Of a stretch of 5,201 nucleotides of DNA, positions 1,041 through 5,201 are shown piece by piece. Within the stretch, counting starts at the first letter, position 1; the number at the start of each line of letters is the position of its first letter. The notes beneath the pieces are model-generated. The model saw only the letters and a program-made list of their open reading frames with translations, ran no database searches and had not been told where the DNA came from. This stretch comes from Gammaproteobacteria bacterium (GTDB lineage Bacteria > Pseudomonadota > Gammaproteobacteria > J113). The translations under genes and the position numbers were made by a program. The stretch spans positions 1-5,201 of the forward strand of contig RFJX01000138.1 in the NCBI GenBank assembly GCA_003694425.1, given 5' to 3'.

Positions 1041-1785
1041 AGAGCAGCAGGGGCAGCCGCTGATCGCCCATCTGCTGGAGCTGCGCGAACGCCTGCTCCA
1101 CTCGGTGCTTTGTGTGCTCCTGGTGTTCCTCTGCCTGTTCTGGTTCGCCAACGACCTCTATGCCTGGCTCGCCCGCCCCCTGCTGGAGAAGCTGCCCGCG
1201 GGGGCCAGCATGATCGCCACCGAGGTGGCCGCCCCCTTCCTCGCCCCCTTCAAGCTGACCCTGGTGGTGTCGATCTTCCTCTCCGTACCCTTCCTGCTCT
1301 ACCAGGCCTGGGCCTTCATCGCACCCGGCCTCTACCGGCACGAGCGCCGTCTGGTCCTGCCCCTGCTGGTCTCCAGCACCGTCCTGTTCTACCTCGGGAT
1401 CGCCTTCGCCTATTTCGTCGTCTTCCCGCTCATCTTCGCCTTCTTCACCAGTACCGCCCCGAGCGGGGTGGCGGTGATGACCGACATCAGCCGTTATCTC
1501 GACTTCGTGCTCAAGCTCTTCTTCGCCTTCGGCCTGGCCTTCGAGGTGCCGGTGGCGGTCTTCCTGCTGGCCCGCACCGGGGTCATCAGCGCCGATGACC
1601 TTGCCGCAAAGCGCCCCTATGTCGTGGTCGCCTCCTTCGTCATCGGCATGCTGCTCACCCCGCCGGACGTCATCTCCCAGGTGCTGCTGGCCGTGCCCAT
1701 CTGGCTGCTGTTCGAACTGGGGCTGGTGATGGCGCGCCGTTTCGGGGGAAGCAGGCGCGGCGGGGAAGAGCCGACGGCCACCTGA
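1015..1785 (+). CDS. tatC: Twin-arginine translocase subunit TatC
   Basis: TatC is the six-helix inner-membrane core of the Tat receptor and binds the RR motif of substrates. The 256-residue product aligns with E. coli TatC by eye across nearly its whole length. Landmarks, with E. coli equivalents, are LLELRER with E22/R24/R26 (E15/R17/R19), the [11 protein letters not shown] periplasmic segment, F101 (F94) and E110 (E103) in [15 protein letters not shown]177 (E170) in AFEVPVAV, and GMLLTPPDV with D218 (D211). Hydrophobic helices fall at roughly 29-46, 79-101, 113-140, 163-185, 201-214 and 220-240, ending in an Arg/Gly-rich cytoplasmic tail. All the key signal-peptide-binding residues are present, so the translocase should be functional. 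The ATG lies inside tatB; a GGAGAA at 999-1004 is 10 bases upstream and coupling to tatB is likely. Confidence 0.98.
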
Positions 1786-1802
1786 CACCCCCCGACGGGG
1801 TG
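1786..1802 (+). terminator. Possible weak terminator hairpin after tatC
   Basis: Directly after the tatC stop, CACCCC (1786-1791) and GGGGTG (1797-1802) form a perfect six-base-pair stem around a five-base CCGAC loop. The following bases are not a proper U-tract; the nearest run, TTTT, is at 1819-1822, 16 bases past the stem. It may act as a weak intrinsic terminator or 3' end stabiliser of the tat transcript, or may allow read-through into the next operon. The position between two functionally unrelated units is the main support. Confidence 0.35.
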
Positions 1803-1884
1803 GGTGACAAACTTAACCTTTTGTGCCAGACTTCCGGCATAAATTGTTGAACCGTCTGGATCATGTTACCCACTCGAACTTTCC
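1803..1884 (+). promoter_or_regulatory. AT-richer leader with possible promoter and inverted repeat, upstream of the barrel gene
   Basis: This stretch is clearly less GC-rich than the coding DNA on either side and lies between the tat operon and a two-gene export cluster, so a promoter is expected here. The best -10-like element is CATAAA at 1839-1844 (four of six consensus bases). The only -35-like match is TTAACC at 1813-1818, with a 20-base spacer that is too long for a good sigma-70 promoter. A perfect inverted repeat, CCAGAC at 1826-1831 and GTCTGG at 1854-1859, brackets the -10-like element and could be an operator or a leader hairpin. No Fur-box-like sequence was seen. The promoter assignment is an inference from position and composition. 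Confidence 0.3.
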
Positions 1885-1890
1885 GGGGGA
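1885..1890 (+). promoter_or_regulatory. Ribosome binding site that sets the start of the barrel gene
   Basis: GGGGGA lies seven bases before the GTG at 1898. It decides the start in favour of 1898 over the upstream in-frame GTG at 1823. The upstream start would put 25 non-hydrophobic residues ahead of an otherwise classical Sec signal peptide. Confidence 0.6.
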
Positions 1891-1897
1891 ACTGCTT

Positions 1898-3205
1898 GTG
1901 CTGAAACGGATATTTCCCGCGCTGCTCATCCTGCTGGCCACCCTTCCGGTCCGGGCGGACGAAGTCCTGGATCGGGCCCGTGAGCTCATGGAGCAGAACC
2001 GGCCGCAGGCCGCCTATGAGCTCCTCGCCCCGCTGCAGGCCGAACGGGCCGGCGACCCCGACTACGACTACCTGCTGGGGGTGGCGGCACTCGATTCCGG
2101 CCACAAGGGCGAGGCGGTCTTCGCCTTCGAGCGGGTCCTGGCGGTCAACCCGGACCACAAGCTGGCGCGTGCCGAGATCGCCCGCGCCTACTTCGAGCTG
2201 AAGGAGTACCAGACCGCGAAGGGCGAGTTCGAAAGCCTGCAGGGGCAGGCGATCCCGGACGAGGTCAAGGAGACGATGAGCCGCTACCTGGCGGCCATCG
2301 ACCAGCAGCTCGGTGCGCTGCGGACCCTGTGGCAGGGCTATGTCGCCATGGATCTGGGCTACGACAGCAACGTCAACAGCGCCACCTCCGCCGGCACCGT
2401 GGCGATCCCCGCCATCTCCTCCATCCCCACCCAGCTCTCCGCCGCGGCGGTGGAGCAGAGCGACATGTTCGTCCGCTTCTCCGGCGGCGTCTCCGTCCGC
2501 CACCGGCTGACCGACGACTGGCTCCTGCACGCCTCCGGCAACGCCTTCAACCGCCAGACCGAATCCCCCTTCAGCACCAGTGCCTTCGGCGGCCATGCCG
2601 GGGTGACCCGGCTGCTGGGCAACCACTCCCTCACCCTGGCGGTACAGGGACAGGAGTTCTTCGTCGATCAGGCCACCTTCCGCAATGTCCTCGGCCTGCA
2701 GGGGCAGTGGGGTTACCAGTACGACAACCGGACCCGGTTCAGCGCCTTCGTCCAGTACCTCGACCTCACCTACCCCACCCAGAAGCCGCGTGACGCCACC
2801 CGGATCGTGGGCGGCGTCGGCGCCACCCGGGCGCTGATGGGCAAGCGCAGTCCGGTCATCTTCGCCTCGGTCTACGGGGGGGTGGAGGACGAGCAGCACA
2901 GCGGCGTGCCGCATCTGGGCCACGACCTGGTCGGCGGCCGCGCCGGTGGCCAGATCAAGCTGCGCCACGACATCGACCTGTTCGGCGCCCTCTCCTACGA
3001 GTACCGGGACTACCACGGCCCCGACCCCCTCTTCATCGCCACCCGCGAGGACCAGCAGTGGGACGCCACTGTGGGCGCGGACTGGCGTTTTGCCAGGAAC
3101 TGGAAACTGACCCCCAAGGTGAGCTATACCGACAACAACGCGAACATCACCATCTATGCATACGATCGCCTCGTCGCCGGCGTGAGTCTGCGCCGCGATT
3201 TCTAG
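1898..3205 (+). CDS. TPR plus outer-membrane beta-barrel protein, Slam/DUF560-like (candidate type XI secretion translocon)
   Basis: I read a 435-residue exported protein starting at GTG 1898. A Sec signal peptide (LKRIFPALLILLATLPVRA, cleavage after A20) is followed by a soluble alpha-helical part at about 22-135. This part looks like three TPR-type units: AAYELLAPLQ; DYLLGVAALDSG-x-x-x-EAVFAFERVLAVNPDH; ARAEIARAYFELKEYQTA. From about 145 to the end come alternating amphipathic strands, starting with GYVAMDLGYDSNVNSA and ending VAGVSLRRDF. The terminal Phe is typical of barrels inserted by the BAM complex. TPR domain, YDSNVN entry and a roughly 290-residue barrel is the layout of Slam (surface lipoprotein assembly modifier, PF04575), which moves substrates across the outer membrane. 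The gene lies 26 bases upstream of a likely substrate, as in known Slam loci. Generic TPR-porin is the main alternative; the barrel is certain in type, the Slam function inferred. Confidence 0.72.
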   Translation: MLKRIFPALLILLATLPVRADEVLDRARELMEQNRPQAAYELLAPLQAERAGDPDYDYLLGVAALDSGHKGEAVFAFERVLAVNPDHKLARAEIARAYFELKEYQTAKGEFESLQGQAIPDEVKETMSRYLAAIDQQLGALRTLWQGYVAMDLGYDSNVNSATSAGTVAIPAISSIPTQLSAAAVEQSDMFVRFSGGVSVRHRLTDDWLLHASGNAFNRQTESPFSTSAFGGHAGVTRLLGNHSLTLAVQGQEFFVDQATFRNVLGLQGQWGYQYDNRTRFSAFVQYLDLTYPTQKPRDATRIVGGVGATRALMGKRSPVIFASVYGGVEDEQHSGVPHLGHDLVGGRAGGQIKLRHDIDLFGALSYEYRDYHGPDPLFIATREDQQWDATVGADWRFARNWKLTPKVSYTDNNANITIYAYDRLVAGVSLRRDF

Positions 3206-3217
3206 GATCTGGCGATC

Positions 3218-3224
3218 AGGAGGA
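3218..3224 (+). promoter_or_regulatory. Strong Shine-Dalgarno of the FecR-domain gene
   Basis: AGGAGGA, a near-perfect anti-16S match, lies seven bases before the ATG at 3232. It is the strongest ribosome binding site in the window, consistent with high expression of the second gene relative to the barrel gene, which starts with GTG and a weaker site. It rules out the longer in-frame reading from 3058, which would run through the end of the barrel gene. Confidence 0.85.
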
Positions 3225-3231
3225 TGGCCAA

Positions 3232-4653
3232 ATGAACAGAACCCCCACCCCACGCATCAAGCCCCTGCGCCTGGCCATAGCGGCCCTCTCCGCCGGGGCC
3301 CTGCCCTTCACCGCGCAGGCCATCGAGGCCGGCAAGGTCTATTTCGCGACCGGCAATGCGAGCCTGGTGCGCGACGGACGCCCGCTGCCCCTGCGCCGGG
3401 GTGCCGCCGTCGAGAGCGGAGACACCATCGAGACCGGCAACGGCAGGGCCCAGATCCGGTTCCGGGACGGCCACTTCGTCTCCCTGCAGCCGGACACCAC
3501 CTTCAAGGTGGACCGGTTCGAGTACGAGGAGCAGAAGCAGGAGGGCAAGGGCTTCTTCAGCCTGGTCAAGGGCGGCCTGCGGGCCATCAGCGGGCTCATC
3601 GGCCGCAAGGACCGCGAGGCCTACCGGCTCAAGACCCCGGTCGCCACCATCGGCATCCGCGGCACCGAGTACCTGGTCAAGCTCAACGGCGGCCTCTACG
3701 TCAACGTCGGCGACGGCTCCATCTGGATCAAGAACGAGGCCGGCGAGCTGGTCCTGCTGGCCGGACAGTCCGCCGTGGTCCCCGGCGAGGGCCAGCCGCC
3801 GCAACAGACCGACAACAAGCCGGTGCTGCCGCCGGAGCAGGGTGGCGGTGGCGGAGAAGAGGAAGGGTTCTCCAGCCCCGAGAACGTGACCGGTGAGGGC
3901 AAGCCGGACATCATCCCGCAGGGGCTGACCAGCGGCAGCCGCTACGCCCTGGCCAATGTCTGGGCCGACACCTGCTGCTTCGAAGGCACCTTCGCCGGCG
4001 GCAGCCCGAGCCAGCCGGTGAACGCCACCTTCAGCGGCGGCGCCCTGGTGGCCTGGACCGGCCCCTCCCCGGTCACCGTCGGCGCCATCGGCAACGCCAC
4101 CGCCACCGACTTCGGCAGCGACGCAGGTACCATCGGCTGGGGGCGCTGGACCGGCGGCACCCTCTCCGTGGTCAACGGCATCGCAGACACGCTCGATGAC
4201 GACATGCACTACGTGATCGGCATCCCCACCGCGACCATGCCGACCAGCGGCACCGCCAGTTACAGCCTGGTCGGCGCGACCTCGCCCACCCGGGTCGGCG
4301 ACGGGCTGACCGGGACGGTCAACAGCGGCTCGATGAACGTCGCCTTCGGCGCCATGCCGAGCATCAGCACCACCCTCAACCTCAGCCTGGGCGGAAACAG
4401 CTACACGCTGAATGACAGCTTCAGCGGACCCGGGGATCACACCTTCTCCGGCTTCGGACTCAACGTCAGCGACACCATGGGCAACTGCGCCTCGGCCAGC
4501 TGCAATGCCAGCCTCGAGGGCTTCTTCGCCGGCCAGAACGCCTCCCATGCCGGATACAGCTACGAGATCTACGACGGCTTCAACAATTCCAGGATCATGG
4601 GCGCCGCCGCCTTCAGCCAGGGCGGAGGGGGGGGCAGGGGCAACCCGCCATAG
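3232..4653 (+). CDS. Exported FecR-domain protein with C-terminal TbpB-like beta domain; candidate Slam/type XI cargo
   Basis: The 473-residue product has a Sec signal peptide with cleavage after TAQA (A30) and no lipobox Cys or RR motif. Residues about 34-184 are a FecR domain (PF04773 type): ESGDTIETGNGRAQIRFRDG, LVKGGLRAISG and the signature TPVATIGIRGTEYLV at 135-149, ending in LLAGQSAVV. A Pro/Gly/Glu linker (about 185-230) leads to a Gly/Ser/Thr-rich beta domain (about 235-461). It contains YVIGIPTATMPTSGTASY, SMNVAFG and a final GFFAGQNASHAGYSYEI ... RIMGAAAFSQ, which resembles the last strands of TbpB-like barrels (G-x-FFG-x-x-A-x-x-x-GG ... GVFG). Four cysteines occur (C248, C249, C419, C424). 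The tail is GGGGGRGNPP. Unlike classical FecR there is no membrane helix and no sigma factor gene adjacent, so it is unlikely to be an anti-sigma factor. Adjacency to a Slam-like barrel suggests a secreted or surface cargo. FecR is firm; TbpB-like is probable; ligand unknown. Confidence 0.78.
   Translation: MNRTPTPRIKPLRLAIAALSAGALPFTAQAIEAGKVYFATGNASLVRDGRPLPLRRGAAVESGDTIETGNGRAQIRFRDGHFVSLQPDTTFKVDRFEYEEQKQEGKGFFSLVKGGLRAISGLIGRKDREAYRLKTPVATIGIRGTEYLVKLNGGLYVNVGDGSIWIKNEAGELVLLAGQSAVVPGEGQPPQQTDNKPVLPPEQGGGGGEEEGFSSPENVTGEGKPDIIPQGLTSGSRYALANVWADTCCFEGTFAGGSPSQPVNATFSGGALVAWTGPSPVTVGAIGNATATDFGSDAGTIGWGRWTGGTLSVVNGIADTLDDDMHYVIGIPTATMPTSGTASYSLVGATSPTRVGDGLTGTVNSGSMNVAFGAMPSISTTLNLSLGGNSYTLNDSFSGPGDHTFSGFGLNVSDTMGNCASASCNASLEGFFAGQNASHAGYSYEIYDGFNNSRIMGAAAFSQGGGGGRGNPP
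4627..4634 (+). repeat. G8 homopolymer tract near the 3' end of the cargo gene
   Basis: Eight consecutive G bases encode part of the C-terminal glycine run (GGA-GGG-GGG-GGC). By frame analysis, gain of one G would move the stop to 4671-4673, and loss of one G would extend the frame to a stop at 4727-4729. Either change affects only residues after the conserved GAAAF segment. It is a potential slippage site, not evidence of variation. Confidence 0.8.
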
Positions 4654-4706
4654 GCGGCCCGGCAAAGGGATGAACCACCTTCAGAGAGGCCCCCTTCACC
4701 GGCGAG

Positions 4707-5201
4707 ATGCACCGTACATGCGGGCCTGAAGTCCGCAGCGCCGTCCCCGGCATCCTCTGGCCCGGCCTGCCGGGGCCGCACGGCGAGGTCCTGCTGAGCC
4801 TGCTGTTCCAGCTCGAGCAGAGTCAGTGGTGGTCTGCAGAGCGGCTGTTCGAGGCCCAGTGGCGCCAGCTCCGTGCCCTGCTGGACCACGCCCGCCGCCA
4901 CAGCGCCCACTATCGCCAGACCCTGCCCGGGGCCGTCGGCCCGGAGGAGTGGACCGGGGTGCCGGTCCTGCCCCGGGAGCTGGTGCAGCGCTCGCCGGAC
5001 TCCCTGCGCTGCGCCCGGCTCCCAGCCGAGCACGGCGGCCGCAGGACCGTCAGCACCACCGGCTCGACCGCCCGCCCGCTGAAGGTGGAACGTTCGGACC
5101 TGGCCATGACCCTGGCCGAGGCGATGGTGGCGCGCGACGAGCTGTGGCACCGGCGTGACCTCTCTGCCCGCCTGGCCGTGATCTCCACCTACGTGCAGGA
5201 C
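4707..5201 (+). CDS. CapK/PaaK-like adenylate-forming enzyme, N-terminal part
   Basis: An open frame of exactly 165 codons runs from ATG 4707 to the window edge without a stop. It reads VPGILWPGLPGPHGEVLL, then SLLFQLEQSQWWSAERL, then a helical QWRQLRALLDHARRHSAHYRQTL and WTGVPVLPREL. This pattern is typical of the start of CapK/PaaK (phenylacetate-CoA ligase-like) proteins: LL-x-HA-x-x-x-S-x-x-YR, W-x-x-x-PVL-x-R-x-x-L. The nucleotide-binding loop follows at 116-127 as STTGSTARPLKV; the usual form is TSGSTG-x-P, so Ala122 replaces the second Gly. The family activates carboxylates as acyl-adenylates, often in surface polysaccharide or lipid loci; the substrate cannot be told. An in-frame stop at 4671-4673 limits upstream extension. 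The Shine-Dalgarno is poor (AGAGAGG at 4683-4689 is too far), so the exact start is uncertain. It may be co-transcribed with the FecR-domain gene 53 bases upstream. Confidence 0.78.
   Translation, partial: MHRTCGPEVRSAVPGILWPGLPGPHGEVLLSLLFQLEQSQWWSAERLFEAQWRQLRALLDHARRHSAHYRQTLPGAVGPEEWTGVPVLPRELVQRSPDSLRCARLPAEHGGRRTVSTTGSTARPLKVERSDLAMTLAEAMVARDELWHRRDLSARLAVISTYVQD

Follow-up and report, generated by a model that had tools for sequence, protein, structure and literature searches.

Type 11 secretion and the locus under study

For type 11 secretion systems (T11SS), ten clusters of DUF560 proteins have been described, of which cluster 1 alone is presented as containing experimentally verified translocons, the other nine having no characterised member (PMC8406197, PMC12282271). 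Here, contig RFJX01000138.1 of a gammaproteobacterial assembly was analysed; the window is this whole contig of 5201 bases. It carries a DUF560 gene, followed by a gene whose product combines a FecR domain with a TbpB-like C-terminal module. With a probability of about three in four, the DUF560 protein is predicted to be a type 11 (Slam-type) translocon for this downstream, non-lipidated protein. The two are called translocon and cargo below.

In the Slam1/TbpB system of Neisseria, Slam1 moves unfolded TbpB into liposomes with the assistance of Skp, and the proposed model has a C-terminal motif recognised by Slam (PMC9090332). The locus has in common with this system a translocon built of a TPR domain and 14 strands (here predicted), a predicted TbpB C-lobe fold at the end of the cargo and the adjoining position of the genes. 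The cargo differs in that it has no lipobox, a FecR domain replaces the N-lobe and PF01298 is not matched. In the T11SS-1B of Xenorhabdus, as well as in the HphA family, a DUF560 translocon likewise lies beside a non-lipidated cargo with one C-terminal barrel. The cargos there have a Sec type I signal peptide, of which the window's cargo has a putative one, and HrpB was reported to export soluble HrpC in E. coli (PMC8406197). In contrast to HrpC and HphA, the cargo of the window has a FecR domain before the pedestal. The cargos treated by Grossman et al. (2025) share the succession of N-terminal effector, pedestal and C-terminal 8-strand barrel; that survey covers clusters 1 and 3 of the ten, and among the roughly ten architectures set out there none has a FecR effector (PMC12282271).

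Literature searches, which left subscription papers and supplementary files outside, yielded, among the papers listed, none joining FecR to T11SS or DUF560. Papers mentioning both 'slam' and 'fecr' dealt with other subjects, as judged by title, and the word FecR is absent from the main texts of PMC12282271, PMC8406197 and PMC5449769. The families of the parts are known; new is their combination, its spread and its neighbours.

Architecture of the translocon and the cargo

The two genes and their parts are as follows, all on the plus strand.

1898..3205, +, translocon gene, DUF560/Slam-family (T11SS) outer-membrane protein, predicted, 435 amino acids (aa)
1898..1957, +, translocon signal peptide, aa 1-20, ...PVRA/DE, read from sequence; helix 6-14 in the model
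1961..2314, +, translocon TPR domain, predicted periplasmic, aa 22-139
2327..3199, +, translocon predicted 14-strand outer-membrane barrel, aa 144-434
3232..4653, +, cargo gene, predicted T11SS cargo of 473 aa, with a FecR domain and a TbpB-like C-terminal module
3232..3321, +, cargo putative signal peptide of Sec type I, aa 1-30, ...FTAQA/IEA, without lipobox; read from sequence
3421..3720, +, cargo FecR domain, aa 64-163; the fold match to the PupR CCSSD spans aa 61-203
3841..3933, +, cargo Pro/Gly/Glu-rich low-confidence linker, aa 204-234; predicted local distance difference test (pLDDT) below 50 at aa 203-227
3934..4221, +, cargo predicted beta-strand pedestal (handle) domain, aa 235-330; the TbpB C-lobe alignment starts at aa 237
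4252..4620, +, cargo predicted 8-strand barrel, aa 341-463, likely translocon-targeting domain
4519..4554, +, cargo C-terminal motif GFFAGxNAxxAG, aa 430-441

The preliminary description of the window had placed two exported proteins at 1898-3205 and 3232-4653, and both frames, the 26-base gap between them and the final Phe of the first protein are as it had them; the first protein begins with an N-terminal hydrophobic stretch. The translocon starts at GTG 1898 (another GTG in frame occurs upstream, at 1823) and the cargo at ATG 3232, immediately preceded by AGGAGG; a purine-rich stretch precedes both starts.

The translocon reaches 28.4 bits against PF04575, with a cut-off of 22, and 29.6 bits in the genome search. 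This family is also matched at E <= 0.01 by 67 of the 70 members of the translocon alignment, the window's protein included; at E <= 0.001 there are at least 1009 homologues among about 8000 scored candidates. The AlphaFold2 model (pLDDT 92.0) displays helical repeats in the TPR region, where PF14559 and PF07719 exceed their cut-offs, and 14 long strands in the predicted barrel, for which CymA and OmpG are the best VIA-align matches. The Slam-type assignment made at the outset is thus supported by family membership, TPR domain and predicted strand number. A sequence search of solved structures found mostly TPR chains; no Slam chain was found by sequence or among the fold matches listed, which is uninformative on relatedness.

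For the cargo, at least 1148 homologues were found at E <= 0.001, again among about 8000 scored candidates, and 71 proteins including the window's own were aligned (alignment A1). The motif at aa 430-441 reads GFFAGQNASHAG, and RIMGAAAF follows near the C-terminal end. These Gly-rich motifs, already pointed out in the preliminary description, are conserved in A1: G430, G434 and G457 are invariant, and F431, F432, A433, A437, A440 and G441 nearly so. Because many homologues match and the three glycines are invariant, the motifs are not a product of chance. In the cargo model, the fold match to the TbpB C-lobe extends over 183 residues (aa 237-466) and HphA structures align with aa 236-465, which points to a TbpB/hemophilin-type pedestal with an 8-strand barrel as the predicted C-terminus. 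The TbpB-like character proposed earlier therefore holds for the predicted handle and barrel, and does not extend to a PF01298 match in the window's protein. When the barrel region alone served as query, 23 proteins were found, three of which have no PF04773 match, so that the barrel is not entirely restricted to proteins with a FecR domain. Two tandem pedestal-barrel modules follow a single FecR domain in five of 120 cargo proteins (P0007, P0008, P0021, P0033, P0080).

Such a barrel might also be inserted by the barrel-assembly machinery as an integral 8-strand outer-membrane anchor for the FecR domain, with the neighbouring gene unrelated to export. This is very improbable: the TbpB C-lobe match also covers the pedestal, the Pfam families matching A1 members at E <= 0.01 (FecR, TbpB_B_D, HphA_C) include no outer-membrane barrel family, and a final Phe is found in only 4 of the 120 cargo proteins. 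A Slam-dependent surface lipoprotein was considered as well and ruled out, as there is no lipobox: by the strict pattern, the lipobox cysteine (signal peptidase II site) occurs in none of the 120 cargo proteins, the window's included, and a looser pattern matches only P0071, inside its hydrophobic stretch.

The FecR domain is covered by the match to PupR, and the cargo shares with the PupR/FecR sigma regulators this fold, called CJM. An anti-sigma regulator of the FecR type was rejected on architecture and given next to no weight, the CJM-like part alone being present. The cargo has a putative signal peptide where the cytoplasmic anti-sigma domain and the transmembrane helix would be. Its match to PupR stops at chain residue 251, leaving almost the entire STN subdomain (250-324) uncovered. 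In PupR the FecR fold forms the juxta-membrane part and requires the STN subdomain for receptor binding (PMC7186176); since the cargo has no such subdomain, PupR-like binding to TonB receptors is not expected. The nearest named NCBIfam models for the FecR part are those of two Leptospira proteins, the surface adhesin Lsa33 and the lipoprotein LipL45, both far below their cut-offs.

Linkage of the two genes across genomes

The cargo alignment was searched against named bacterial genomes, and the best 80 hits gave 77 loci, mostly from Betaproteobacteria such as Sideroxyarcus, Rhodocyclaceae and Methyloversatilis. A script found a translocon match on the same strand within 400 bases of the cargo in 67 of them (64 upstream, 3 downstream). 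Reading the leftover rows added three loci with overlapping open frames (L027, L072, L074) and three with two consecutive cargo genes behind one translocon (L012, L022, L050), so that 73 of the 77 are paired. Three of the unpaired loci (L066, L082, L085) are cut by a contig end.

The linkage test from the translocon side is less biased. In 36 related genomes, the window's own included, each of the seven PF04575 matches is closely followed by a PF04773 match. A second sample comprised 229 genomes of the class and shares genomes with the first; here, 29 PF04575 matches were listed and 21 distinct genes lie above the Pfam cut-off, two pieces in genome G148 being counted as one gene; 15 of these 21 lie directly beside a FecR frame. 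The window's own translocon gene was missed by the class sample and is not part of this count. Among seven rows below the cut-off, a FecR gene lies downstream in L110 and a FecR-barrel gene upstream in L105 (L133), and in the other five no FecR gene was found. The co-occurrence in related genomes that the preliminary description called for is thus seen from both sides.

The window's genome has a second pair on contig C57, its translocon 37% and its cargo 32% identical to those of the window; translocon and cargo have therefore stayed together while their sequences diverged. A tree built from 32 selected DUF560 rows places the FecR-paired proteins at a distance from the strong PF04575 members. 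A single branch (93/88, present in 92% of bootstrap trees) splits 26 FecR-linked rows from five others, all five of which are without FecR and on long branches, one further row falling in no group. Ten of these rows were hand-picked from the cargo-side loci, and L099, L103 and L112 were left out. That the pairing recurs in many other bacteria suggests a branch of type 11 secretion that has received little study.

One member of the tree, L058, is a 4.1-kb contig labelled Limisphaerales (Verrucomicrobiota) with the pair in reversed order, which stands among betaproteobacterial rows; its placement may reflect transfer or misbinning.

Proposed mechanism

Translocon and cargo would both cross the inner membrane via Sec. 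After insertion into the outer membrane, the translocon would form a 14-strand barrel, and its TPR domain would lie in the periplasm. The unfolded cargo would be recognised through its C-terminal barrel, as proposed for Slam1/TbpB, and would then pass through the translocon and fold outside. By analogy with the described systems, the DUF560 protein would use the C-terminal barrel to export its neighbour, whose FecR domain would end up outside the cell. Barrel and pedestal would serve as the export module and the FecR domain as the working end. As there is no lipid anchor, the product may be released or held by other contacts. Outside the cell, the FecR domain would most likely bind a ligand or a surface partner, as suggested by Lsa33 and LipL45 being its nearest models.

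A different fate of the FecR domain is conceivable, in which only the barrel is exported via DUF560, and the FecR domain stays folded in the periplasm as a plug or sensor, so that the cargo spans the outer membrane in the manner of LapA. In LapA and MpAFP, which are adhesins of type 1 secretion, a TolC-like pore retains the N-terminal module. The LapA module profile (NF033682) matches 67 of the 71 A1 members at E <= 0.01 (best 5.3e-11). Sequence searches of solved structures gave nothing usable with the cargo itself, and with the A1 profile the antifreeze protein 5ix9 as sole chain at E <= 0.1 (E 0.024); this chain comes from a retention-module adhesin. The missing lipobox fits as well, and the FecR-type part of PupR is described as periplasmic (PMC7186176). 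CHASE2-cyclase-like frames are found in 9 of 95 loci, and in Burkholderia a FecR protein and a CHASE2 kinase belong to one biofilm operon (PMC5192318). However, the similarity to the retention module is partial and weak. It lies in the first 60-70 residues past the signal peptide, stays below the cut-off (42.9 bits for the best member against 50) and covers about the first half of the module in each of ten proteins viewed; the window's own cargo has no match at E <= 1. Furthermore, the published Slam1 model transports the entire cargo (PMC9090332). Because relatives partly resemble the retention module, a periplasmic FecR domain keeps some probability, and is on the whole unlikely.

An even bolder arrangement would be a separate T11SS branch, in which an OGT-like GT41 enzyme and the adenylate-forming ligase would decorate the cargo while it is still in the cytoplasm. 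The cargo would then be exported C-terminus first through the DUF560 pore, be held by its FecR domain as a LapA-like plug in the outer membrane that replaces the lipid anchor, and report to CHASE2 sensors. To this we would give a slim chance.

Evidence weighing against export by the translocon

Several observations count against the translocon as exporter of its neighbour. For the translocon itself, the Slam-specific TPR model (TPR_Slam, PF24575) stays below its cut-off, with 20.6 of 35.2, BBP2_2 (PF10082) passes its own with 25.0 over 23.7, over aa 354-432 only, and the top Foldseek matches by E-value are the polysaccharide exporters BcsC (9b8a) and PelB (9h80). Together with a weak match to the EpsL model and the shared build of TPR domain and barrel, this could speak for a polysaccharide exporter of the PgaA/BcsC/PelB kind, with the FecR protein as a periplasmic or surface accessory. 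Such a role is improbable, since the translocon is predicted to have 14 strands with CymA and OmpG as best matches, whereas PgaA has 16 (PMC8406197), and the TbpB-like end of the neighbour is a mark of T11SS substrates.

On the side of the cargo, PF01298 (TbpB_B_D) has no match to the window's protein at E <= 1, and at E <= 0.01 it matches 5 of the 71 A1 members. With regard to linkage, one of the 77 cargo loci (L046) has no translocon in its 1.47 kb upstream, and in the 36 related genomes 15 of 22 PF04773 matches are without a DUF560 neighbour. With a profile derived from A1 and flanks of 1.5 kb, no FecR gene was found beside six of the 21 class DUF560 genes, namely three strong-scoring ones in G148 and one each in G216, G224 and G133. 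The G216 contig ends 155 bases past its DUF560 gene, the G133 frame has 133 residues, and none of these four is among the class genomes listed with a PF04773 match.

The association of DUF560 with FecR is also met without the barrel. Of the 82 complete FecR frames that directly follow a translocon gene, 66 match the barrel profile and 16 do not; of these 16, three show the C-terminal motif (L056 is doubtful), leaving 13 of 82 with neither signal. The frames without a barrel signal include fragments as well as FecR-only proteins about 250 residues long. Given the 16 frames that lack the barrel profile, the barrel is no fixed component of the DUF560-FecR association, and FecR is, if anything, the steadier partner of DUF560. 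Export of a cargo by its barrel leaves the FecR-only proteins unexplained.

FecR proteins without the barrel

FecR-only partners with no detectable barrel lie beside the DUF560 genes of L118 (10717-11481), L119 (4467-5228) and L120 (4591-5397), of which L118 and L119 are two genomes of one family. For these DUF560 genes, either the cargo is located elsewhere or a barrel is not always needed.

In Azonexus, Dechloromonas, Propionivibrio and relatives, an extra FecR-only gene (247-370 aa by open frame) directly precedes the translocon; this is seen in L018 (3676-4533), L030, L038, L039, L041, L049, L051, L052, L067, L076 and L086. In the window's genome (G000), a FecR-only gene on contig C169 (L008, 3607-4248) is flanked by a long repetitive TpsA-like frame and a TpsB-like frame (two-partner secretion), both labels being read from the sequence, and FecR is here again adjoining an outer-membrane exporter. 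A fourth FecR gene, on contig C137 (L009, 2699-3412), lies beside two frames that read as autotransporter-type barrels, on the opposite strand.

Significance

With this pairing, a part of the T11SS without known cargo gains a concrete candidate cargo family, along with tractable hosts for testing. A role is also offered for FecR proteins, which are now annotated solely by a domain name derived from iron regulation. With GT41 and ligase genes linked to the pair, one may also ask whether T11SS cargo is modified before export.

Other genes of the window and recurrent neighbours

The remaining genes of the window are the following.

179-502, +, phosphoribosyl-ATP pyrophosphohydrolase gene
519-1785, +, two TatA/B-family genes and tatC
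4707..5201, +, gene for an adenylate-forming ligase (PaaK/DVU_1553-like), 5' portion only, running off the contig

The assembly is incomplete (2.08 Mb in 301 contigs, 76% complete). A scan of 1700-5201 found no promoter; the single terminator-like site lies on the minus strand and is no better than expected by chance. The ligase gene at 4707 and the FecR domain (aa 64-163) are features on which the preliminary description was silent, and its interpretation of the pair as transporter and cargo is supported.

Neighbours were collected at 95 loci, comprising the 77 cargo-side loci, L007 and 17 from the class sample; L083/L132 and L078/L131 are very likely duplicate contigs, within both these 95 loci and the 82 frames above. 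Unsupervised clustering gave a cargo cluster of 93 loci (the window counted), a translocon cluster of 89, a gene combining TPR and GT41 in 31 loci (on the same strand in 30 of 30 anchored ones) and an adenylate-forming ligase in 19, the window included; further clusters include antisense frames and shared synteny. By profile, GT41 was counted in 30 and the ligase in 19 of the 95 loci. Members of this set served to build the profiles for GT41, the ligase (one sequence) and CHASE2, and these members match by construction. A Pfam scan covered 53 of 77 script-listed downstream frames, without those above 1000 aa and several short ones, and three frames added by hand (GT41 in L024; CHASE2 candidates in L122 and L131). 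Glyco_transf_41 was matched in 21 of these 56, the hand-picked L024 frame among them.

The OGT-like GT41 gene follows the cargo gene for example in L012, L017, L019, L022, L024 and L010, and in the window's genome one is located on a separate short contig (C185, 3279-5213). The window's ligase matches NF045666 with an E of 6.7e-5, below the cut-off, falls into the same cluster as the recurrent ligase neighbour and shares 41% identity over 160 aa with the gene following the pair in L057; eight recurrent ligases examined reach 106-147 bits against this model, below the cut-off of 300. A ligase also lies beside the pair in L047, L026, L045, L016, L119 and L069. The order translocon-cargo-GT41-ligase-FecR recurs in L012, L017, L019, L022 and L070, and the window has translocon-cargo-ligase. 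HMW1C, a GT41 enzyme, modifies an exported adhesin before secretion, and given this precedent it is a fair guess that the linked enzymes may modify the cargo before export.

The CHASE2-cyclase-like frames near FecR/T11SS pairs were counted with a profile made from three such frames, and two of the nine loci (L120, L127) have partial frames only. Pfam CHASE2 is matched in 3 of the 56 scanned frames, two of them those put in by hand. Such frames lie at 2700-5249 in L122, 5544-7808 in L129, 3135-5429 in L131, 9817-12078 in L073 and 4569-6815 in L133.

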